A DNA stretch of 64,000 bases from Propionibacteriaceae bacterium (GTDB lineage: Bacteria > Actinomycetota > Actinomycetes > Propionibacteriales > Propionibacteriaceae): the NCBI GenBank assembly GCA_030532575.1, contig JAUNKV010000005.1:62001-126000 (forward strand), written 5' to 3'. Below the pieces are notes generated by a model, which saw nothing but the letters and a program-made list of their open reading frames with translations, searched no databases and was not told the origin of the DNA. Position 1 is the first letter of the stretch; the number at the start of each line of letters is the position of its first letter. This document shows, in pieces, positions 1-63,386 of the stretch. The position numbers and the translations under genes are program-made.

Positions 1-192
1 TCCAGGCTCGGCACCGGCGGCGGCTGGTACGACCGCGCACTGCCCCATGCCCGCCCCAGGGCCCCGCGCTGGGTGCTGGTCAACGACGACGAGGTGCTGC
101 CCGAGCTGCCCATCGAACCTCACGACCTTCCCGTCGATGCGGCCATCACCGAGCGCGGATTCACGCTCCTGAACCTCGGCCACGTATCCTGA
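1..192 (+). CDS. 5-formyltetrahydrofolate cyclo-ligase, C-terminal part (gene runs off the left edge)
   Basis: Only the last 63 codons are in the window, ending at TGA 190-192. The fragment carries the family signature GTGGGWYDRAL near its start, the glycine-rich loop that binds the ATP/folate substrate in 5-formyl-THF cyclo-ligases. This is followed by the short conserved tail containing the VDAAITERG motif. The enzyme converts 5-formyl-THF to 5,10-methenyl-THF with ATP in the cytosol. FmdB follows 30 bp downstream on the same strand, so the two may be co-transcribed. The start and N-terminal half cannot be assessed. Confidence 0.9.
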   Translation, partial: SRLGTGGGWYDRALPHARPRAPRWVLVNDDEVLPELPIEPHDLPVDAAITERGFTLLNLGHVS

Positions 193-222
193 TCGACGTT
201 TGTCCGCCCACCGGGAGAATCC

Positions 223-501
223 ATGCCCACCTATCAGTACCGCTGCACGGCCTGCGGCAACGAGCTCGAGGTCGTCCAGAAGTTCACCGACGCCGCGCTG
301 ACCACCTGCCCTGCCTGCCAGGGTTCGCTGCGCAAGGTCTACAACGCCGTCGGCGTGGTGTTCAAGGGCTCCGGTTTCTACGCCACCGATTCCCGGAAGT
401 CGAACAGCGCCTCCAAACCGGCCGAGTCCAAACCCGCGGACTCAAAGCCCACCGCCAAGACCGAGACGAAGGCCACCACCTCTAAGAGCGCCCGCGGATA
501 G
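223..501 (+). CDS. FmdB-family zinc ribbon protein
   Basis: A 92-residue protein starting MPTYQYRCTACG with a second CPAC knuckle at about residues 29-32. This is the four-cysteine zinc ribbon of the FmdB regulatory-protein family. The family name comes from methylotroph amide-utilisation loci, and the true role is unknown. After residue 60 the chain is a low-complexity Lys/Ser/Ala/Pro/Thr tail, typical of actinobacterial members. The last few codons and the stop (TAG 499-501) lie inside the left end of a MITE-like element. Without the element the frame would reach TGA after one further codon, so the insertion only alters the extreme C-terminus. Confidence 0.9.
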   Translation: MPTYQYRCTACGNELEVVQKFTDAALTTCPACQGSLRKVYNAVGVVFKGSGFYATDSRKSNSASKPAESKPADSKPTAKTETKATTSKSARG

Positions 502-645
502 GTGGAATCTACTGCGGTCGCCCTGGAGGCCCCCTGGCAGCGTTGAACTCCTCGAACGCACGCTCCAGTGCGATCTTCGTCGTCCGCCTTGCCAAGTGGC
601 CACCATGACGATCCTCGTGACGACCCCACCTCACCGCGCACCCTC
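486..645 (+). repeat. MITE-like element, copy A
   Basis: A 160 bp block about 90% identical by eye to 63133-63293 and, reversed, to 3951-4110. Its ends are imperfect inverted repeats related to GAGGGTGCGCGGTGAGG: the left end has drifted to GAGCGCCCGCGGATAGG and the right end reads CCTCACCGCGCACCCTC. The left flank is TAA and the right flank is TGG, so no target duplication is preserved here. It contains no convincing gene. It begins inside the last codons of fmdB and provides that gene's stop codon. Confidence 0.8.
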
Positions 646-705
646 TGGCTGAACTCCTGCTGTGGAAAAGCGTTTTCGGGCCTGATTCGTGCCTACAACG
701 GGAGT

Positions 706-1314
706 ATGGACACCTTGCTCCAGCGCGCGAAGCGTTTCATCTCCTGGCACCGTCGGATCATTGCCGCTCTCCTGGTTGGGGTGGCCACCGCCATCGTGCT
801 CGGGCAGCTGCGCCCGGACACCGTCGACCTCACCGATGTCGCCGTGCTCACCTCCAACCTGGAGCAGGGGCATCGGCTCACCGCCTCTGATGTGCACCTC
901 GTCCGGGCACCACGCGACACCCTGCCCGATGAGTACCTGGACACTGCTGAGGAGGCCATCGGCAGGACCATCAGTGTCAGCCTTTCACCCGGCACCGTGC
1001 TTCAGCACGGGCTGCTCTCCGCGGCTCCGACGGTGGCCGAAGGGCGCTCACTGACCCCGATCCAGCTGGCCGATCCATCCCTGGTCGAGGTCCTGTCCCC
1101 CGGCATGTCCGTCACCCTGGTACTCACCGAGACCAGCGAGATCGTTGCTTCTCACGCTCGGATCACAGCACTTTCCGCACCGGACGGTGGGGGCACCTTC
1201 CAGCTCGGCTCCAGTCATCGCCCACTGATCCTGCTCGACGTGGCGGCCGAGTCCGCGCCCATCGTCTCCGCCCTGGGGCAGAGCGGACAGCTCTCGGTCG
1301 TCATCGAGACCTGA
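706..1314 (+). CDS. SAF-domain membrane-anchored protein (CpaB/RcpC-like)
   Basis: A 202-residue protein with one N-terminal membrane segment (about residues 17-33, IIAALLVGVATAIVLGQL). A SAF-type domain follows (about residues 40-110), with the usual pattern of a residue able to enter 'at will' motifs (DVHLVRAPRDTLP, then GRTISVSLSPGTVL). This resembles the CpaB/RcpC proteins of Flp pilus assembly, but no other pilus genes lie nearby. The ATG at 706 is chosen because GGGAG precedes it and the membrane segment follows; a longer frame upstream would run through the repeat element. Function beyond an envelope-anchored SAF protein is unknown. Confidence 0.75.
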   Translation: MDTLLQRAKRFISWHRRIIAALLVGVATAIVLGQLRPDTVDLTDVAVLTSNLEQGHRLTASDVHLVRAPRDTLPDEYLDTAEEAIGRTISVSLSPGTVLQHGLLSAAPTVAEGRSLTPIQLADPSLVEVLSPGMSVTLVLTETSEIVASHARITALSAPDGGGTFQLGSSHRPLILLDVAAESAPIVSALGQSGQLSVVIET

Positions 1315-1351
1315 GCCTTTCGGGGGACTGGCACTTCTTCCCTCCGGCGCG

Positions 1352-1380
1352 TAGAGTGCGGACGACCCCGCTTCGGGGTC
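1352..1380 (+). promoter_or_regulatory. Probable mscL promoter -10 and leader hairpin
   Basis: TAGAGT (1352-1357) has the TAnnnT form of actinobacterial -10 boxes. It is followed by a perfect 7-bp hairpin GACCCCG-CTT-CGGGGTC (1364-1380) at the start of a predicted leader of about 90 nt before mscL. The promoter call is by pattern only, and any regulatory role of the hairpin is inference. Confidence 0.4.
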
Positions 1381-1451
1381 CCCCGGAAACTGAATCCGCA
1401 GTACCGGGAAGTCCCGGCCCCACGGCCGGCCCACGATCAGAAGGATTTGGA

Positions 1452-1817
1452 ATGCAGGGTTTCAAGGAATTCCTCATGCGCGGCAACCTGGTTGAGCTGG
1501 CTGTCGCAGTCATCATCGGCTCCGTCTTCGCGAAGGTCGTCGAGGCGTTCACCAAGATCCTCACCGACTTCATCGGCTACTTCGGCGGCCAGCCGGACTT
1601 CTCCGCCGTCGAGATCGCCGGCATCAACATCGGTGGCTTCATCAACGCGGTCATCACCTTCGTCATCACCGCAGCGGTCGTCTACTTCTTCGTCGTCAAG
1701 CCCTACAACGCGATGCGTGAGCGCTTCAGCAAGAAGCAGGAGGAGGAGCCCGCGGCCCCGACCTCCGAGGAGCTGCTGACCGAGATCCGCGACCTGCTCA
1801 GGACCCGCAACGCCTGA
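1452..1817 (+). CDS. mscL: Large-conductance mechanosensitive channel MscL
   Basis: A 121-residue protein with the MscL layout. An N-terminal amphipathic helix (MQGFKEFLMRGN) is followed by TM1 (about residues 14-35, VELAVAVIIGSVFAKVV), a short periplasmic loop (GGQPDFSAVEIAG) and TM2 (about 62-85). It ends in a charged cytoplasmic helix (EELLTEIRDLLRTR). It opens under membrane tension to release solutes during hypo-osmotic shock. The loop is short and the protein is slightly smaller than the roughly 136 residues of E. coli MscL, as is common in actinobacteria. It has its own promoter-like box at 1352 and a strong terminator at 1836, so it is probably monocistronic. Confidence 0.95.
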   Translation: MQGFKEFLMRGNLVELAVAVIIGSVFAKVVEAFTKILTDFIGYFGGQPDFSAVEIAGINIGGFINAVITFVITAAVVYFFVVKPYNAMRERFSKKQEEEPAAPTSEELLTEIRDLLRTRNA

Positions 1818-1835
1818 GCGGCGCACCCACCACGG

Positions 1836-1870
1836 ATCGGCCGTCCCGCCTCGCGGGGCGGCCGATTTCT
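1836..1870 (+). terminator. Terminator after mscL
   Basis: ATCGGCCGTCCCGC and GCGGGGCGGCCGAT form a 14-bp stem with one G-U pair and a 3-nt loop, followed by TTTCT. It lies between mscL and the convergent gene ending at 1870, so it could serve both strands. Confidence 0.85.
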
Positions 1871-2214
1871 CATCCCCAGTGGGGTGGCCGCTCAGCGACC
1901 AGCCGCCGCTCGTCGGCATTCAGCTCACGAGTGATGACATGCGCAGGCCGCACCTGGGAGTCCAGCCCAAGACCTCTCCTGAACTCGGTGAGGCAGGCAT
2001 CGAAACGCGCGAACCCGATCCCACGCAGCGCCCGGGGATCGACGGGGAACGGCCAGGGCAGACGCTCTCGCCGCCGGGTCTCGCGGAACTCCAGCAGCCG
2101 ATCACGATCCCAGCCGAGAGCAGCCAACTCTGCGACGAGCCCCGCCGGGTCGGTGCGCGTGACCGGCAACTCCTGTCCGGTCAGGGCCAGGGCAAGCAGC
2201 GCGGCCTCAGCCAC
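1870..2214 (-). CDS. Hypothetical protein, translationally coupled to UDP-glucose pyrophosphorylase
   Basis: I do not recognise this 114-residue protein. It is soluble, mixed helical, and carries an acidic/arginine-rich middle (RDRLLEFRETRRRERLPW) and a conserved-looking GIGFARFDACLTEFRRGLG stretch. The GTG at 2214 is chosen because GTGGCTGA overlaps the stop codon of the upstream gene by 8 bp, a typical coupling arrangement. A longer frame starting at 2292 would overlap that gene deeply. The coupling suggests expression together with the nucleotide-sugar enzyme but gives no function. Confidence 0.6.
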   Translation of the reverse strand: MAEAALLALALTGQELPVTRTDPAGLVAELAALGWDRDRLLEFRETRRRERLPWPFPVDPRALRGIGFARFDACLTEFRRGLGLDSQVRPAHVITRELNADERRLVAERPPHWG

Positions 2215-3583
2215 CAATCGTCGCCCCGTCAGGAACGACCCCGGGCACACCCTGATCCTCCAGACTGGCCTCACCGACCACCGTGACGCCACGCCCGAAG
2301 GTCCAGTCCCCCTTGACCCGCAGCGCCGTCGCCCCCTTCAGTGACGGGGCCTCAGGAATCCGGGCCTCGAACTTCTGGATGGTCTTGTAATGGGCACCGT
2401 CCAGGCTCACCTCGGGGGTCTCGACCTCGGCGATCAGGTGTCCGTCCTCGTCCAGCCGGTAGACATCCGAGCGCAGCAGCAGCAGCTCGTTGGTGGTCTT
2501 GACCGGCTGGAACCGGTCCCGACCGACACAGATCGCCGTCGCCCCGGGGAACACCTCGATGGCCGCCCCCATCGCGGACTCCACCTGGATCACCGGGGTG
2601 GAGTCAGCATCGGCAGGGTCCACGGTCTTCTCGTTGCGGATCATGGGCAGCCCCAGCACCGCGTTGCGCTCCACGAGGGTCGCCATCAACCGTCGAAGAT
2701 CGAACCACAGGTTGTTGGTGTGGAAGAACGGGTGGCGGTGCTCGTCGGTGAAGAAATCCATCTCCTCCGGAGCGGTCTGCGCGGTGTCGCGGAGGATCAG
2801 CTGGCCGTCGCTGCGTCGAATGGCCAGGTGCCCGCCCTTGCGGTCGTTGACGGTGCGGCGGCACAGCTCAGCCGCGTAGGGCGCCCCCGAGGCGGCGAAC
2901 CAGCCTGCCAGGCGCGCATTCGGGGCAGCCCCCAGGTTGTCGCCGTTGGAGATGCAGGCGTAGCGGAAGCCCGCATCCAGCAGCTGCTGCAGCACCCCGG
3001 AGCCGTAGAGGGCGGTGTACAGGTCGCCGTGCCCGGGTGGGCACCACTCCAGGCTGGGGTCGGCCTCCCACTCGACGGGGGTGAGGTCGTCGGCCCTGAG
3101 CTTGGGCTCCTGGTTCTGCACGAAGGACAGCGGCAGCCCACCGACGGCGAGGTCGTCGTAGCGAGACAGGTGCTCCAGCGTGTCGGCCTCGGTGCGGAAG
3201 GAGTTCATGAACAGCAGCGGCAGCCGCGCCCCGTACTCACGGCGGGCGGCCTGCACCTGGCGGACGATCAGGTCCAGGAAGTTCAGCCCATCACGCACCT
3301 CGAGCAGGTTCTTGGCCTTGTCGAGGCCCATCGAGGTACCCAACCCACCGTTCAGTTTGATGATGACGGTGGCCCCGATGGCCTCCTTGGCCTGCTCCTG
3401 TGAGACCTCGACCGCATCCAGCATGGGCGGATCGAGCAGCGGGGTGATGCTGTCCTCACGGATCAGCCCCGTCTCGCCGGACTCCAGGAGCCGGTAGTAG
3501 TGGGAGAACACCTCTATGGCGGGAACCGGGACCCCGGCTGCACTCATCTTCTGGCGAGCGGCCTCGAGACCTTGCTGGGACAT
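2207..3583 (-). CDS. UTP--glucose-1-phosphate uridylyltransferase (eukaryote-type UDPGP family)
   Basis: A 458-residue protein of the UDPGP family, which makes UDP-glucose from UTP and glucose-1-phosphate. The nucleotide-binding motif KLNGGLGTSMGLDKAK sits at about residues 76-92, where the eukaryotic enzymes have LNGGLGTxMGxxxPK. It is followed by the LLFMNSF and QNQEPKL regions and the YACISNGDNLGA sugar-binding segment. This is not the bacterial GalU type, but such enzymes are common in actinobacteria. ATG 3583 is preceded by a purine-rich GGAGAGAAG ribosome site. It is upstream partner of the 1870-2214 gene. Confidence 0.9.
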   Translation of the reverse strand: MSQQGLEAARQKMSAAGVPVPAIEVFSHYYRLLESGETGLIREDSITPLLDPPMLDAVEVSQEQAKEAIGATVIIKLNGGLGTSMGLDKAKNLLEVRDGLNFLDLIVRQVQAARREYGARLPLLFMNSFRTEADTLEHLSRYDDLAVGGLPLSFVQNQEPKLRADDLTPVEWEADPSLEWCPPGHGDLYTALYGSGVLQQLLDAGFRYACISNGDNLGAAPNARLAGWFAASGAPYAAELCRRTVNDRKGGHLAIRRSDGQLILRDTAQTAPEEMDFFTDEHRHPFFHTNNLWFDLRRLMATLVERNAVLGLPMIRNEKTVDPADADSTPVIQVESAMGAAIEVFPGATAICVGRDRFQPVKTTNELLLLRSDVYRLDEDGHLIAEVETPEVSLDGAHYKTIQKFEARIPEAPSLKGATALRVKGDWTFGRGVTVVGEASLEDQGVPGVVPDGATIGG

Positions 3584-3656
3584 CTGTCTTCTCTCCTGCG
3601 TCGGTACGTCGGACAGTCTATCTCCCGAGCGCCCTCGCAGTCGTGGAGTCAGGATC

Positions 3657-3710
3657 GGGCGGTCGGGTCCATCCTGCAGCCCCCCGCAGGATTCCCGGAC
3701 CCGACCGCCC
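3657..3710. terminator. Long bipartite hairpin in the 3584-3950 gap
   Basis: A perfect 14-bp outer stem (3657-3670 with 3697-3710, GGGCGGTCGGGTCC) is separated by a 4-nt bulge from a perfect 7-bp inner stem ATCCTGC/GCAGGAT. There is no U tract on either side. It lies between the end of the glutamine-synthetase-like gene and the start of the pyrophosphorylase gene, both leftward. A factor-assisted terminator or mRNA stabiliser is likely. The rest of 3584-3950 shows no convincing gene. Confidence 0.55.
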
Positions 3711-3911
3711 GGCCATGTGTCAGCTCACCGTCGTTCAGTTCGATTCCGGGGAGCCAATCCGACGCCCGACGCGAGAGGAACCTTGTGACATCTGCTGATG
3801 GTTGCAGGCTCCATCCGGAACCTGAACCACCTAGATGTTTACATTTTCAACGGCCACGACACAAGGCCGGATCGTCGAAAAAGCCCGCAAATCCCAGAAC
3901 TCTAGCCGATA

Positions 3912-3929
3912 GTCATCCATATGGATGAC
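3912..3929. promoter_or_regulatory. Perfect 18-bp palindrome
   Basis: GTCATCCATATGGATGAC is its own reverse complement. It lies in a less GC-rich stretch 22 bp left of MITE-like copy B and about 330 bp upstream of the leftward pyrophosphorylase gene. The size and symmetry suit a dimeric regulator's operator, but no promoter is obvious beside it. Confidence 0.4.
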
Positions 3930-3950
3930 ATGAGGGTGACCTTCGGTCAA

Positions 3951-4110
3951 GAGGGTGCGCGGTGAGGAGGGGTCGTCACGAGGATCGTCATGGTGGGCAC
4001 CTGGCAAGGTAGTACGACGAAGATCGCACTGGATCGTGCGTTCGAGGAGGTCCGCAGCCAGGGGGTCACCAGGGCGACCGCAGTAGATTCCGCCCTCACC
4101 GCGCACCCTC
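3951..4110 (-). repeat. MITE-like element, copy B
   Basis: The best-preserved ends of the family: 3951-3967 and the complement of 4094-4110 are the same 17 bp, GAGGGTGCGCGGTGAGG. The element is flanked by CAA on both sides (3948-3950 and 4111-4113), a 3-bp target duplication. In the family orientation it reads leftward. It begins 8 bp past the stop codon (4119-4121) of the leftward glutamine-synthetase-like gene, the same relative position and orientation as copies A and C. Confidence 0.85.
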
Positions 4111-4118
4111 CAAGTTCA

Positions 4119-5600
4119 TCAGCCGATGTGGAAGGACCGATCCACCAGCTCCTGGACGTCCACCCCGCCCTTGGCCAGCTGAGAGCGCAAGTCAGCATCG
4201 CCGTGGGCCTCCAGCATCGCCGCCCAGGAGTCGATGAGTCCCGGCGGGAAGACATCATGGGCCTCGTAGTCGGCCCGCTGCGCCCTCAGACACTGCGCCG
4301 CCTCCGCGCAGGACGCGGGCAGCTGGTCCAGCCCCTCAACCTTGGAGGCGTCCCCCACCACGTAACGACGTTCCGCGTACTCCAGCATCGACGGGTCGGT
4401 GAGCCCCAGACGGGCCGCGACGGCGACCCCCGCCAGCAGCAGGTGCACGCTGGCCGAGCCGTCCGGGGAACGCAGCTCGACGGTCTGCGCGTTGTTCACC
4501 AGGCGGGGCACCGGCTCATCGTGCGGGTTGGCGTCGCGGTACATCCGGTCGTCGAGGTTCTGCCAGCCGAGCGGCACCCTCACCAGCACGGAGCGGTTGC
4601 GATCCCCCCAGCAGATGGCGGTCGGGGCCTCCTGGTGGGGCACCAGCCTCAGGAAGGAGGTGGGCACGGTGTTGCCGAAGGCGGTGAGCGAGGCCGCGTG
4701 GGACAGGTACCCGCCGATGACCCGCTTCGCCACCTCCGTCAGCCCCTGGCCCTGGGAGAACTGGTTGACCCCGTCCTTCATCAACCGGGTGTGGAAGTGC
4801 ATCCCGGAACCGGCCTGCCCCTCCTCGATCTTCGGGGAGAACGAGACCTCGACCCCGTGCCGGTGCGCCACCTCACGCAGCACCCACTTGGCCAGCACCA
4901 TCTGGTCCGCGGCCCGGCAGACATCGGTGGGGCTGAACTCGATCTCCTGCTGCACCATCTGCCTGCCACCGGCGATGAAGTTGCCCACCTCGGCGTGCGC
5001 ATACTTCACCGAGCAGCCCATCCGCACCAGGTGGGCGAGGGTCTCGGTACGGATCTGGGTCCACTTCGAGAAGGGACCGGCCTCGTGGTAGCCGCGTTGC
5101 GGCTCCACCGGGAACAGCTCCTCGACGTCGGAGAACAGGTAGTACTCCAGCTCGCCCAGCGCCTCAAGCCGACACCCGGTCTCGGCCTCCAGCGCCTCCT
5201 GGGCCTTGCGGAGGATGTGCTGCGGGGCGCTGGCCAACGGCTGGCCGTCCACGTCGTAGAAGCCGCACAGGAACTCCAGCGTCGGTTCGTCGGTGAACGG
5301 GTTGAGGAAGGCGGTGCGCAGCTGTGGGATGACGTAGAGATCGGAGCTGGAGGCATCCACGAAGTCGAACAGCGAGGAGCCGTCCACCCGCTCCCCCATC
5401 GTCAGGATGCGTTCCAGGTGCTCCCGGGACTGGATGGCGAAGTTCAGGGCCTTCAGCCTGCCATCACCCCCGATGTAGCGCAGATTGAGCATGAGAATGT
5501 CGCTGTGGGCGACGTATCGGACGATGTCAGCCCGGGTGAACTCCTCAGCAGGCTTGCCGATGGCACGAACCAGGGGACTGGGATTGAGGTCAAGCGACAC
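4119..5600 (-). CDS. Glutamine synthetase family protein
   Basis: A 493-residue protein of the glutamine-synthetase fold. Metal- and substrate-site signatures are visible: GELEYYLF with paired acidic residues, AEVGNFIAGGRQMVQQEIEF, the ATP/metal histidine segment GSGMHFHTR, the arginine loop GDRNRSVLVRVP and VELRSPDGS near the end. Family members ligate ammonia or an amine to glutamate with ATP. Divergence from GlnA and its lone setting mean it could be a gamma-glutamyl-amine ligase rather than the main enzyme. GTG 5600 has AGGAG just upstream. A MITE-like element sits immediately past its stop codon. Confidence 0.8.
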   Translation of the reverse strand: MSLDLNPSPLVRAIGKPAEEFTRADIVRYVAHSDILMLNLRYIGGDGRLKALNFAIQSREHLERILTMGERVDGSSLFDFVDASSSDLYVIPQLRTAFLNPFTDEPTLEFLCGFYDVDGQPLASAPQHILRKAQEALEAETGCRLEALGELEYYLFSDVEELFPVEPQRGYHEAGPFSKWTQIRTETLAHLVRMGCSVKYAHAEVGNFIAGGRQMVQQEIEFSPTDVCRAADQMVLAKWVLREVAHRHGVEVSFSPKIEEGQAGSGMHFHTRLMKDGVNQFSQGQGLTEVAKRVIGGYLSHAASLTAFGNTVPTSFLRLVPHQEAPTAICWGDRNRSVLVRVPLGWQNLDDRMYRDANPHDEPVPRLVNNAQTVELRSPDGSASVHLLLAGVAVAARLGLTDPSMLEYAERRYVVGDASKVEGLDQLPASCAEAAQCLRAQRADYEAHDVFPPGLIDSWAAMLEAHGDADLRSQLAKGGVDVQELVDRSFHIG

Positions 5601-41758: not shown

Positions 41759-42256
41759 TCACCTCTCATGACCGACGCCGTCGTGGCAGCGGATGCAGGA
41801 CATCTGCTCGCCCTTGTGCTCGGAGCTGTTCATGGCCTGGTCGACCTGGTTGCCGTGGCAGTCGATGCAGGCGGCCTCGATGATCTCGCGGTTGTGCTCA
41901 CGGACCTTGATGTTCTCGGGATAGTTCTGCAGGGTGAACTTCAGGGCGTGCCAGAAGCCGTTGTCCGCCTTGTTCACGTACTTCCCTACGATGTCGTTGT
42001 GGGGGGCGTGGCAGGAATTGCAGGTTGCCACGTCGTGATGGGACCCCTTGAGCCAGCCCTCGTACTGCTCGTTCATGGCGTGGCAGTTGGCGCAGCTGGC
42101 GGGGTCGTCGCCGAGGTAGTCGGTGGCACCGGAGTAGTAGACCGTGAACGCCCCGACACCCAGGATCATGCCGAGCAGGGCAGCCAGGACCACACCCGTC
42201 CAGCCCGTGAAGGCCCGGGTGAAATCCTGCCACCTGGCAGCGATGAAACGCTTCAT
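41759..42256 (-). CDS. nrfH: NrfH quinol-oxidising tetrahaem cytochrome
   Basis: A 165-residue NapC/NrfH-family cytochrome with one N-terminal membrane helix (about 20-40). Its four haem sites are at residues 55-59 (CANCH), 79-83 (CNSCH), 130-134 (CIDCH) and 154-158 (CIRCH). It oxidises menaquinol and hands electrons to NrfA. It is the first gene of the operon running left to 35712. The ATG has GAAGAAGAG upstream. The 141 bp upstream gap shows no FNR-type box that I can identify. Confidence 0.95.
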   Translation of the reverse strand: MKRFIAARWQDFTRAFTGWTGVVLAALLGMILGVGAFTVYYSGATDYLGDDPASCANCHAMNEQYEGWLKGSHHDVATCNSCHAPHNDIVGKYVNKADNGFWHALKFTLQNYPENIKVREHNREIIEAACIDCHGNQVDQAMNSSEHKGEQMSCIRCHDGVGHER

Positions 42257-42397
42257 GGTGTCTCTTCTTCGAGGGTGAGGACGTCTCCGCCACGGGGTGT
42301 GACGGAACCCGACACCACGACGCTAACACCGGGCGCTGACGTTTTCAGGAAAATGCCCGCAATACCACAGCTTGTGAGGCAAGGGCAACCTAACAGG

Positions 42398-44497
42398 TCA
42401 GCCCACCAGCAGCTGACGTGCGGCCTTCGCGGCTGCCGAGCTCCCCGAGAACTGCTCCAGCCAGCCCCGCAGGGCGGCATCCATGGTGGAGCGGCCCTTG
42501 CGGGTCTGCTCGTCGTGCAGCAGGGTGAGCAGCTTGGCCACCCCGGTGGCGCCGTGTTCGAGCTTCGGCAGCAGGGCCGTCAGCACGTCGATGACGGCAT
42601 CCGGGTTGAGCCCCGCTGCATCCGCCAGGGAACCCGCCCAGCGGGAGAGCACCACGTTGGACACCTGGTCCGCCATCGCCGTCGCCAGCTGTTCAGCCCT
42701 CAGGCGGCCCGGAACCTTCGACGCCACCAGCTCCGCCGCGCTCGCCCGCACCGCCTGGTGCCGGGAGGCCAGACCGAGGGCGACGCAGGCACCAGCCGCC
42801 TCATCCCAGCGCCCCGGGTGGCGGGTCAGCAGCTCGAGGGACAACGCATCGAGCTGGCGCGGCGCCACCTCGTCCAGGCCCTTGTGGATGGCCATCTTGG
42901 CGGTCGGCACCAGCGGCGCGGTGTCATCGGGGAAAGCCAGGGCCACGGCCTGCAGGTGCTGCGGGTGGAGGGTGTAGAGGTCCTGCCAGAACTCCTCGTC
43001 GTAGGTGCCCTGCGCCGGGACAGCGGTCCCCAGCAGCGCGGCCCCGCGCTGCCGGTCCTCGGGATGCAGCCGCCAGATGGCCTGGAACAGATCGGCCGGT
43101 GGGGCGGTCGTCGGCTCGGCAGCCCGGTGGGCGAAGTCATCCCAGGTGATCCAGCCGTCCTCGTCGCTCAAGGTGGCGAGCAGCAGGCGACGGGGCCGCT
43201 CACCCCGCACCATCTCCACCACCTCACGCATCCGAATGGCCCACACCCGAAGCGCCGAACCGACTTCGCCGTCGCTCTGGTCGGGCCTCGGCTTGTGGAA
43301 GGGGTCCAGGGCGCTGGGCGGGATGCTTGGAGCCTCAGGGTCCAGCACAGCGTGGAGGAACTCGGCTGGGATGGAGCCACGTTTCGCGCAGGCCTTGGCC
43401 CGTTTCGTCAGCGGCGCCAGGACGGTGGCGGCGTCGTCTGTGACGGCCACCCAGGCCATCGCGAGCTCCACCTCGAGGGCATCCCCACCTTCGATCAGGG
43501 CCGCGGCCCGCTCCAGGGCGTCGTCTCCCCACGGCACGACACGCCGGGCGGAGGTCTCGTCGATCTGCTGCGCCGCGGTCTCCGCCACGTCGATCCCGAA
43601 CTGGGCCGCCACGGCCGGGGACAGCAGCTGCGCTCCCTCGCGCAGCACCTCCTCGGCCCCGAGCTCCCGCAGCGCCTCGGCGGCTGCGATCTGCACGGCC
43701 GCATGAGGGTGGGACAGCGCGACGGCGACGGCCTCGGCCTTCCGCTCGGCAGGGGCGTCGAGACGCTGGATGATCCGCAACCCCGTCGAGGCGATGCTCT
43801 TGGCCCCCGTGAGCGGCCCGTGGCAGTGGTCCAGAAACTCAGTGGAGGCGAGTTTCCCCGCCCGCTGCACGGCCGCCAGCTGCATCGTGGCCATCGACAC
43901 CGTCGCATTGATCCCGGAGTCGAGGGCGCGCAGCAGGAGGTCCTGATCGGCGGCTGCCTCCTCAGGGGTGGGTTTCAGATCCGTGTAGAGGCCGGAGAAC
44001 CAGTTGGCCTGGTAGGCGGACAGGTCACGCACCAGACCCGCCAGGCAGGCCCGCAGCACCCGGGCGCGATCCAGCAGCCCCTCGGCGACCAGGGTGGCGA
44101 TGTCCGAGGCCCAGTGCGCCCGGGGGCCATAGGCGGAGCGGTCGAGGCTGGCCAGCGAGTCCTCGGTGCCGCCGTTCCAGGCCAGGACCTGCCAGATCAG
44201 CTCCCGCATCTGCTCGTCGCGGCGCAGCAGATGCAGCCGGTGACCCTCGGATGCGGTGACCAGGGTGCGCAGGTAGGCCTCGTCGTGGGCGACCTCCAGC
44301 CCCTGGAACAGCTCCCGCAGCCTCACCTGGTAGGTGGTGCCGACGAGCTTGGGGGGCAGCTCACCGTGCTGGGCCTGCAGCCCCAGCAGGAAGGCGTGAA
44401 CCTCGACCAGGGAGGGCTCCAGCGCGAAGAAGGCGTCCAGCACCTTCTCCAGCTCCTGCACGGTGTGCACCCTCATGGAGGAGTTGTACCACTTCAT
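42398..44497 (-). CDS. Large helical-repeat protein of unknown function
   Basis: A 699-residue soluble, leucine/alanine-rich protein made mostly of helix pairs in a HEAT-like repeat pattern, for example HPHAAVQIAAAEALRELGAE and RHPGRWDEAAGACVALGLAS. It resembles the large uncharacterised proteins grouped as DUF6493-like, but I cannot confirm the family. There are no membrane segments and no catalytic motif. The start is uncertain: ATG 44497 is used, with GTG 44503 and ATG 44476 as alternatives and no strong ribosome site. It is divergent from the gene at 44567. Confidence 0.65.
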   Translation of the reverse strand: MKWYNSSMRVHTVQELEKVLDAFFALEPSLVEVHAFLLGLQAQHGELPPKLVGTTYQVRLRELFQGLEVAHDEAYLRTLVTASEGHRLHLLRRDEQMRELIWQVLAWNGGTEDSLASLDRSAYGPRAHWASDIATLVAEGLLDRARVLRACLAGLVRDLSAYQANWFSGLYTDLKPTPEEAAADQDLLLRALDSGINATVSMATMQLAAVQRAGKLASTEFLDHCHGPLTGAKSIASTGLRIIQRLDAPAERKAEAVAVALSHPHAAVQIAAAEALRELGAEEVLREGAQLLSPAVAAQFGIDVAETAAQQIDETSARRVVPWGDDALERAAALIEGGDALEVELAMAWVAVTDDAATVLAPLTKRAKACAKRGSIPAEFLHAVLDPEAPSIPPSALDPFHKPRPDQSDGEVGSALRVWAIRMREVVEMVRGERPRRLLLATLSDEDGWITWDDFAHRAAEPTTAPPADLFQAIWRLHPEDRQRGAALLGTAVPAQGTYDEEFWQDLYTLHPQHLQAVALAFPDDTAPLVPTAKMAIHKGLDEVAPRQLDALSLELLTRHPGRWDEAAGACVALGLASRHQAVRASAAELVASKVPGRLRAEQLATAMADQVSNVVLSRWAGSLADAAGLNPDAVIDVLTALLPKLEHGATGVAKLLTLLHDEQTRKGRSTMDAALRGWLEQFSGSSAAAKAARQLLVG

Positions 44498-62611: not shown

Positions 62612-63148
62612 GTGACTGATACGGATACCTCCTCGTTCCACCTGCCACACCCTCGCCGTGGCGAGGAGGAGTTCGCCGAGGACTCTGCTGCCCGGCTCGG
62701 GTCGCACATCAAGACGGCGGAGCAGGCACTGCTCACGGCAAAGTCCGAGGCGTTGCGCCCGTTCGATTTGACGGTGGCGCAGTACGCGGTGTTGATGTCG
62801 TTGTACTACATGCCCGAGCAATCGTCGGCTCAGCTCGCGCGGGTCGCGGCGGTCACAGCGCAGACGATGGGGCAAACACTCGACAAGCTCGAAGCCAAGG
62901 GGTTCGTGACCCGGGTGCCTTCAAAGGTGCATCGCAGGATGCTGGTTGTCTCCCTGACCCCTGCGGGCGAGGCTCTGGCCCTGCGGGCAGACGAGGCCCC
63001 GCGGGCAATCGAGCAGCGCCTGGGCGAAGCCTTCACCGATGCGGAACGCACGCAGCTGCGCGACCTGTTGCGTCGGGCCACCGCCTCGCTGCGAGGCGAC
63101 TCCAGCGAGGAGGACCCTCAGCCCTCCGTTAAGAGGGTCCGCGAATAG
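62612..63148 (+). CDS. MarR-family transcriptional regulator
   Basis: A 178-residue MarR protein with a winged helix (SSAQLARVAAVTAQTMGQTL recognition region, LEAKGFVTRVPSKVHRRML wing). Helix 1 and the C-terminal helix (TDAERTQLRDLLRRATASL) form the dimer interface. It probably senses a small phenolic or oxidant and represses the quinone oxidoreductase gene at 63433, which has a matching operator. The last codons (RVRE) and the stop are supplied by a MITE-like element. Without it the frame would end at TAG right after Lys (SVK). Confidence 0.9.
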   Translation: MTDTDTSSFHLPHPRRGEEEFAEDSAARLGSHIKTAEQALLTAKSEALRPFDLTVAQYAVLMSLYYMPEQSSAQLARVAAVTAQTMGQTLDKLEAKGFVTRVPSKVHRRMLVVSLTPAGEALALRADEAPRAIEQRLGEAFTDAERTQLRDLLRRATASLRGDSSEEDPQPSVKRVRE

Positions 63149-63293
63149 GCGGAATCTACTGCGGTCGCCCTGGTGGCCCCCTGGCTGCGTTGAACTCCTC
63201 GACTGCCACGATCCAGTGCGATCTTCGTCGTCCGCCTTGCCAGGTGCCCACCATGACGATCCTCGTGACGATCCCACCTCACCGCGCACCCTC
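63133..63293 (+). repeat. MITE-like element, copy C
   Basis: A 161 bp copy of the family at 486-645 and 3951-4110. Ends: GAGGGTCCGCGAATAGG on the left and CCTCACCGCGCACCCTC on the right. TAA occurs on both sides (63130-63132 and 63294-63296) as a target duplication. It is inserted within the last codon before the original stop of the MarR gene and separates that gene from its likely target at 63433. Confidence 0.87.
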
Positions 63294-63386
63294 TAAGTAG
63301 CGAGCCCGGCAAGGACACTTCGATCCACCCGAGCCCAACCCGGCAGGGACCCCGTGATCCATCAACACGACCCCTTGCCTTAATAT

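Follow-up and report, generated by a model that had tools for sequence, protein, structure and literature searches.

A MITE-like element with IS5-type ends that probably carries a conserved RNA hairpin in Propionibacteriaceae

The window, a stretch of 64,000 nucleotides from a genome near Arachnia propionica (G000; 3,188,189 bases in 75 contigs), contains three copies of an element of about 160 bp. Copy A lies at positions 486 to 645 and copy C at 63133 to 63293, both on the + strand in the orientation in which the original prediction described the family, and copy B lies inverted (− strand) at 3951 to 4110. The positions and orientations given in that prediction were recovered in BLAST searches with copy A (E values of 1.5e-62 for copy C and 3e-52 for copy B). 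The covariance model R2, built for the opposite strand (the R strand), matched all three and preferred that strand in each case: 157.8 bits on the − strand versus 34.8 on the + strand for copy A, 157.3 on + versus 58.3 on − for copy B, and 159.4 on − versus 42.6 on + for copy C. The conserved, RNA-like strand is therefore the minus strand at copies A and C and the plus strand at copy B. Within the copies, a core shared with elements of other genera was placed from alignment A2 and the cross-genus consensus at 535 to 595 (−) in copy A, 4001 to 4062 (+) in copy B, and 63182 to 63243 (−) in copy C, with limits that are approximate and counted by hand. The core of copy A holds internal loops (GGCAAGG.. 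and the ..GCAGCC/GCTGCC region) and an apical stem.

The inverted ends of copy B are perfect, as had been described, with a 17-bp end of GAGGGTGCGCGGTGAGG; in copies A and C the outer arms show 75% complementarity across 20 and 24 nt. Duplications of 3 bp, also part of the earlier description for two of the copies, flank copy B (CAA on the window's + strand at 3948 to 3950 and 4111 to 4113) and copy C (TAA at 63130 to 63132 and 63294 to 63296). The flanks of copy A are not identical, with TAA on the left and TGG on the right. When the empty sites were joined and a home-made gene caller was run on them, the stop codon of the upstream gene began 4 bp past the start of the target at copies A and C, and the target of copy B began 8 bp past the stop, in agreement with the claim that A and C lie at a stop codon and B just beyond one.

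The element is abundant in its own genome and in close relatives. In a DNA search of 60 genomes, the window's own included, seven matched, all from one genus, and the repeat was present in A. propionica strains OH2822_COT-296 and OH887_COT-365. Of 112 places that a profile found in the fetched stretches of two genomes, 99 were full length, with 42 of these in the window's own genome and 57 in the relative G023. At a slightly looser cut the analyzed set comprised 101 near-full-length copies, 44 from the window's own genome and 57 from G023; gene context was assessed without one G023 copy, whose flank was too short (n = 56 for G023). The relative G011 carries 23 further copies that form a subfamily ∼70% identical. 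Many contigs of the G023 draft start or stop within a copy; the element thus breaks that assembly, and the actual number of copies is probably larger. In alignment A1 the copies of the window's genome are mosaics: a few short variant words recur at fixed positions, in combinations that vary freely from copy to copy, as though the copies had recombined. Three partial matches in another genome, G034, had been considered as ends of an insertion sequence (IS) and were dismissed, being fragments or internally deleted copies.

Identical 3-bp flanks were found at 48 of the 101 copies (TAA, 22; TTA, 18; TTG, 3; TGA, 3; TCA, 2), and 40 of these 48 duplications are TAA or TTA. Among the 53 copies with nonidentical flanks, 23 have TAA or TTA on one side and a word one transition away on the other (hand count); the remaining 30, copy A included, are without a clear duplication. 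Empty sites were found as well. The joined flanks of one copy in the window's genome (C12:14735) aligned without gaps over 300 bp (87% identity) to an element-free site in strain OH2822_COT-296, and those of a G023 copy (C103:6345) aligned across positions 42072 to 42552 of the window, with gaps near the junction. There were 18 spanning alignments among the matches listed in this comparison, several of them to paralogues.

The original prediction had likened the GAG-type ends and TNA-like targets to those of the IS5 family while seeing no such transposase in the window, and IS5-family elements with matching ends were found in two relatives. In G023 an IS of 961 bp (locus L127, 603 to 1563) is bounded on each side by the same 17-bp end as the element (GAGGGTGCGCGGATAGG) and lies in a TAA duplication. 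Its protein belongs to the IS5 family (NF033580, 158.9 bits against a cutoff of 110, E = 1.6e-46) and falls just under the cutoff for DUF4096 (34.0 versus 34.3). G011 contains pieces of a counterpart IS whose ends, GAGATTCCGCAGGTAGG, are the same as those of G011's own copies. Relatives at 71% and 69% occur in two other genomes, G030 and G032. A broken relic of the partner transposase, matching in three pieces, was seen in G034 (C16, L138).

No partner IS with matching ends was found in the window's own genome, where the only IS5-type element is a different, distant one at two places (39% over part); the partner there has been lost or is hidden in assembly gaps. Two candidates from this genome were rejected as the partner. 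One, at C16 (∼74296 to 75208; L104) and C66 (∼2302 to 3214; L105), has a TAA/TTA duplication, and its ends, GAGGTGGTTTC, differ from those of the 160-bp element; the other, at C31, has ends GGTCGTGTT that likewise differ. The IS5-type element on C66 directly adjoins a copy of the 160-bp element, with a single TAA between them.

The 160-bp element encodes no transposase and has only its ends in common with the partner IS. It is short and non-coding, and has terminal inverted repeats, a target duplication and, in G023 and G011, a partner IS with the same ends. Judged by its ends, duplications, empty sites and the matching IS ends in two relatives, each copy is a miniature inverted-repeat transposable element (MITE). 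It is probably movable by a bacterial IS5-family transposase, and the partner transposase would be the one that moves it.

All three copies in the window lie at gene 3′ ends, from which site choice at transcript ends had been proposed. A gene caller that had been trained on the fetched sequence placed 10 of 44 copies in the window's genome and 8 of 56 in G023 inside genes. The target word itself is scarce in coding sequence: in the 62 kb of the window counted (positions 701 to 3900 and 4201 to 63000) there are 41 TAA/TTA sites, 25 of them outside called genes, and the window's genes contain 19 such sites against 135 (range, 115 to 152) when codons are shuffled within genes, a rarity measured within the window. 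It is generally known that such words are avoided across codon borders. Over all the sequence at hand from this genome, 46 of 162 TAA/TTA sites fell inside genes. The element thus lands between genes mainly because the TAA/TTA that it targets is rare inside them, which gives a simple reason for repeats at stop codons in a GC-rich genome whose genes nearly lack the target word.

Target choice does not account for everything. Copies overlapped stop codons in 6 of 44 cases in the window's genome and 8 of 56 in G023, versus 6 of 162 and 6 of 217 TAA/TTA sites, and 18 of 44 and 13 of 56 copies had a stop no more than 40 bp away, versus 33 of 162 and 23 of 217 sites; these control sites come from sequence that surrounds the copies and includes the restored targets, and they are not independent. 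Placement at gene ends is therefore mostly a result of target choice, and a choice of transcript ends is mostly not needed to explain it, with an excess right at stop codons remaining.

The same end of the element had been seen to face the stop codon at all three copies, and it is conceivable that the element serves a fixed-orientation role at gene 3′ ends, terminating or processing the upstream transcript. The window's genome agrees with this: between tandem genes 15 copies were parallel and 3 antiparallel (P = 0.0075), with 11 copies between convergent and 2 between divergent genes, and the left neighbor pointed toward the element in 28 cases and away in 5. The proximity of 18 of the 44 copies to a stop codon is a further point on this side. 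However, the tandem count falls to 12 to 3 when the three window copies are removed (two-sided P of about 0.035, calculated by hand), and the bias does not recur elsewhere. In G023 the counts were 10 parallel, 11 antiparallel, 8 convergent and 14 divergent, with the left neighbor pointing toward the element in 18 cases and away in 26 (P = 0.00013 for the difference between the two genomes); in G011 they were 6, 5, 0 and 7. Among 64 copies from a wider set of genomes, described below, the RNA strand was sense to a tandem pair in 13 cases and antisense in 18, and the duplications show no strand preference (22 TAA and 18 TTA). A fixed 3′-end role is thus quite unlikely, and the common orientation stands for the window's own genome only, where no cause for it was found. 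A TAGATT-like word occurs at the left end of 39 of its 44 copies. The idea of an outward promoter at that end was dropped, given that in G023 the left neighbors of word-bearing copies pointed away in 5 cases and toward the element in 3, with no sign of avoidance.

Nor did a known 3′-end structural RNA explain the repeat without transposition, the alternative that had been named beforehand; the marks of transposition are present, and no Rfam family reached its gathering score in positions 1 to 5000 of the window (copies A and B), in nine loci of relatives or in one Streptomyces locus. The best Rfam score on an element was 26.3 bits against a cutoff of 83 (mir-3151). A scan for intrinsic terminators of the form GC hairpin plus T-run, a form that excludes the T-less terminators of actinobacteria, found none at copies A and B and one terminator-like site in positions 1 to 5000, at 1736 to 1753, outside the copies.

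Pairing in the element extends well beyond the inverted ends noted earlier, and the entire 160 bp folds on itself. On its minus strand copy C forms one hairpin that spans its full length (−87.9 kcal/mol, z = −7.0), versus −65.3 kcal/mol (z = −3.0) on the plus strand. The R strand was the more stable in 123 of 124 copies (43 of 44 in the window's genome, 57 of 57 in G023 and 23 of 23 in G011), with 6 to 7.5 G·U pairs per copy. Covariation was examined in a MAFFT alignment of 66 of the 124 copies, 22 from each of the three genomes. Of the 53 predicted pairs, 29 had changes on both sides that kept the pairing, a count made without correction for the relatedness of the copies; none of 500 shuffles reached it, and slid partners gave at most 8. 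At the predicted pairs the bases could pair in 96.4% of cells, and at columns 21-152 and 40-137 wobble pairs had been exchanged for the reverse wobble. The both-sided changes represent fewer events than cells, since most of them separate the G011 copies from the others, and some arose within groups. An earlier alignment that left out G011 and comprised 40 copies on the strand of the original description had only 3 of 34 pairs of this kind.

Palindrome arms can be copied onto each other, and conversion between the arms could produce paired changes with no selection on the structure. Some end variants do match between arms within G011 copies, in which a change close to one end often has its mirror image at the opposite end (GAATAGG with CCTATTC). 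However, conversion would erase wobble pairs and internal loops, yet both persist; the left and right ends often differ in the window's own genome, and across genera the loops are more conserved than the stems. Arm conversion is therefore a very improbable source of the pattern. The interior is best read as a conserved structured RNA or, less probably, as a hairpin acting as DNA.

The interior was not confined to one genus or to one kind of end. Matches to R2, mostly at full length, came from 26 of the family's 147 searched genomes and from 7 of 29 genera. In the 64 copies outside the modeled set, which were found and oriented with the model itself, identity was 0.72 in unpaired and 0.57 in paired columns; inside the modeled set the two were about equal (0.84 and 0.82). 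The R strand was the more stable in 63 of the 64, a figure that is not independent, since the model chose the strand. The cross-genus consensus keeps cGT.gcGAG, tgGCAAGGCGga, ctGG, GaCAACGC.GCcaG and cgCGcAG.ag.

Around this core the ends vary. Among the 64 wider copies, 11 of which were left unclassed, GAG.. ends go with 3-bp duplications (identical in 3 of 6), TGGTCTGTC-like ends with CTAG (5 of 9), GGAGGG and G.GCCGCGGCC ends both with TA (3 of 6 and 2 of 2), AGAGKTGATTC ends with an unclear 2-bp duplication (1 of 5), and CCTG.ATCC-like ends with 5-bp duplications (12 of 14, and 8 of 11 more). One genome, G154, has three end types. Copy L288 resembles L286 in its outer part (83%, versus 66% in the inner part) and L284 in its inner part (83%, versus 39% in the outer part), which indicates an exchange of core and ends; shifted ends account for some of the other low outer scores of this comparison. 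A search of 14 genomes with NF033580 gave eight IS5-type loci in 4 genomes, none of which had any of the other end types (best agreement, 11 of 14 bases).

The core is also present on plasmids. Copy L286 gave one weak BLAST hit, to a Streptomyces plasmid, where the model matched the core only (E = 3.4e-5), and neither copy A nor the relative copy L282 matched any plasmid sequence. Starting from this plasmid, matches were found at 89 places on 48 plasmid records (46 Streptomyces and 2 Embleya); among the plasmid matches listed, 31 of 40 cover at most half of the query. A copy in S. canus has long inverted ends with CTAG on both sides. On Streptomyces plasmid NZ_CP108807.1 (L355, ∼1850 to 2112) the end of a second element seems, by eye, to lie directly before the first.

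Two simpler accounts of the interior can be weighed against these results. The element could be an ordinary MITE, an internally deleted IS with a meaningless interior, as its ends are common to an IS5-family element and many MITEs fold as hairpins according to PMC10969869. Against this, the interior shows no match to the G023 IS beyond the ends (R2 on L127, 13.1 bits, E = 0.55), has both-sided changes along its length and recurs with other ends, so that this origin is very doubtful. The hairpin could also act as DNA, forming a cruciform or a single-strand hairpin during transposition or replication and playing no part as RNA. The lower stem and ends are the terminal repeats of the transposon, the whole length pairs on one strand in 123 of 124 copies, and G·T pairs are tolerated in DNA hairpins. 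However, a role tied to one transposase does not explain why loop sequences are kept across different ends and duplication lengths, and the G023 IS moves, or moved, without the core. We consider a DNA hairpin unlikely.

The reading that we favor, with a probability of roughly 0.7, is that the element is a MITE with IS5-type ends inserted at TAA/TTA, that it carries a conserved hairpin whose core is common to other elements, and that it lands at gene ends mainly because of its target. The presence of this core in elements whose ends differ suggests that what is maintained and spread is the core itself. Somewhat short of an even chance, in our estimate, is the broader proposal that these elements are mobile structured RNAs and not reduced transposons. 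In that view a single RNA core of actinobacteria, preserved for a function of its own, would have taken up the terminal repeats of whatever transposases were available (3-bp TAA/TTA, 4-bp CTAG, 2-bp TA and 5-bp types), both within several of the family's genera and in Streptomyces.

In the mechanism that we envisage, an IS5-family transposase would recognize the ends and insert the nonautonomous element of ∼160 bp at TAA/TTA. Between the ends lies the conserved hairpin, on the strand opposite that first described, with a core common to elements with other ends and duplication lengths. Transcription from the neighborhood would run through the element, and the core would then work as RNA: a host factor might bind the hairpin and its conserved internal loops and process, end or shield the transcript, making insertions between genes tolerable. 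What favors a role in the transcript is that one strand preserves its wobble pairs and loops, together with the presence of the core in elements whose ends differ. That the core is kept because of such a host factor, which by acting on the transcript eases intergenic insertion, is a tentative suggestion that we rate as rather less likely than not.

MITEs are usually taken to be transposon leftovers with nothing of their own to preserve. In this family the fold inside persists across genera and duplication lengths although the ends vary, and selection thus appears to target the cargo rather than the ends. This allows asking what a small non-coding element gives to its host or to itself, and how its transposase is switched.

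The element was not described in the literature searched, mostly at the level of abstracts and including PMC10969869, and no paper in that literature contained both core words together. It has likenesses to several known systems. ERIC and Correia elements (NEMIS/CREE), known from enterobacteria and Neisseria, are also small, multicopy, non-coding and MITE-like, with transcripts that fold as hairpins; by description, the present family differs in having one core with several kinds of ends and duplications. The IS5 family (NF033580) has the GAG-type ends and 3-bp TNA-like duplication, but the element lacks a transposase gene and only the ends are common. 6S-type RNAs likewise form one long irregular hairpin of about 160 to 190 nt with internal loops, whereas the element is multicopy, is flanked by duplications and has no Rfam match near a cutoff in the stretches scanned. 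REP/REPIN sequences are dispersed palindromic repeats moved in trans by RAYT transposases; the element, in contrast, has DDE-type IS5 ends and target duplications.

Viral sequences were also searched. Neither copy A nor the copies from relatives matched phages, and when 80 of at least 120 stretches of viral contigs that fit a loose core pattern were scored with R2, none matched at E = 0.01. A stricter core pattern picked out one contig of the viral collection, IMGVR_UViG_2886804071_000004 (L354), in which positions 660 to 811 are a full-length match to the model (E = 4e-13) with four matching flanking bases.
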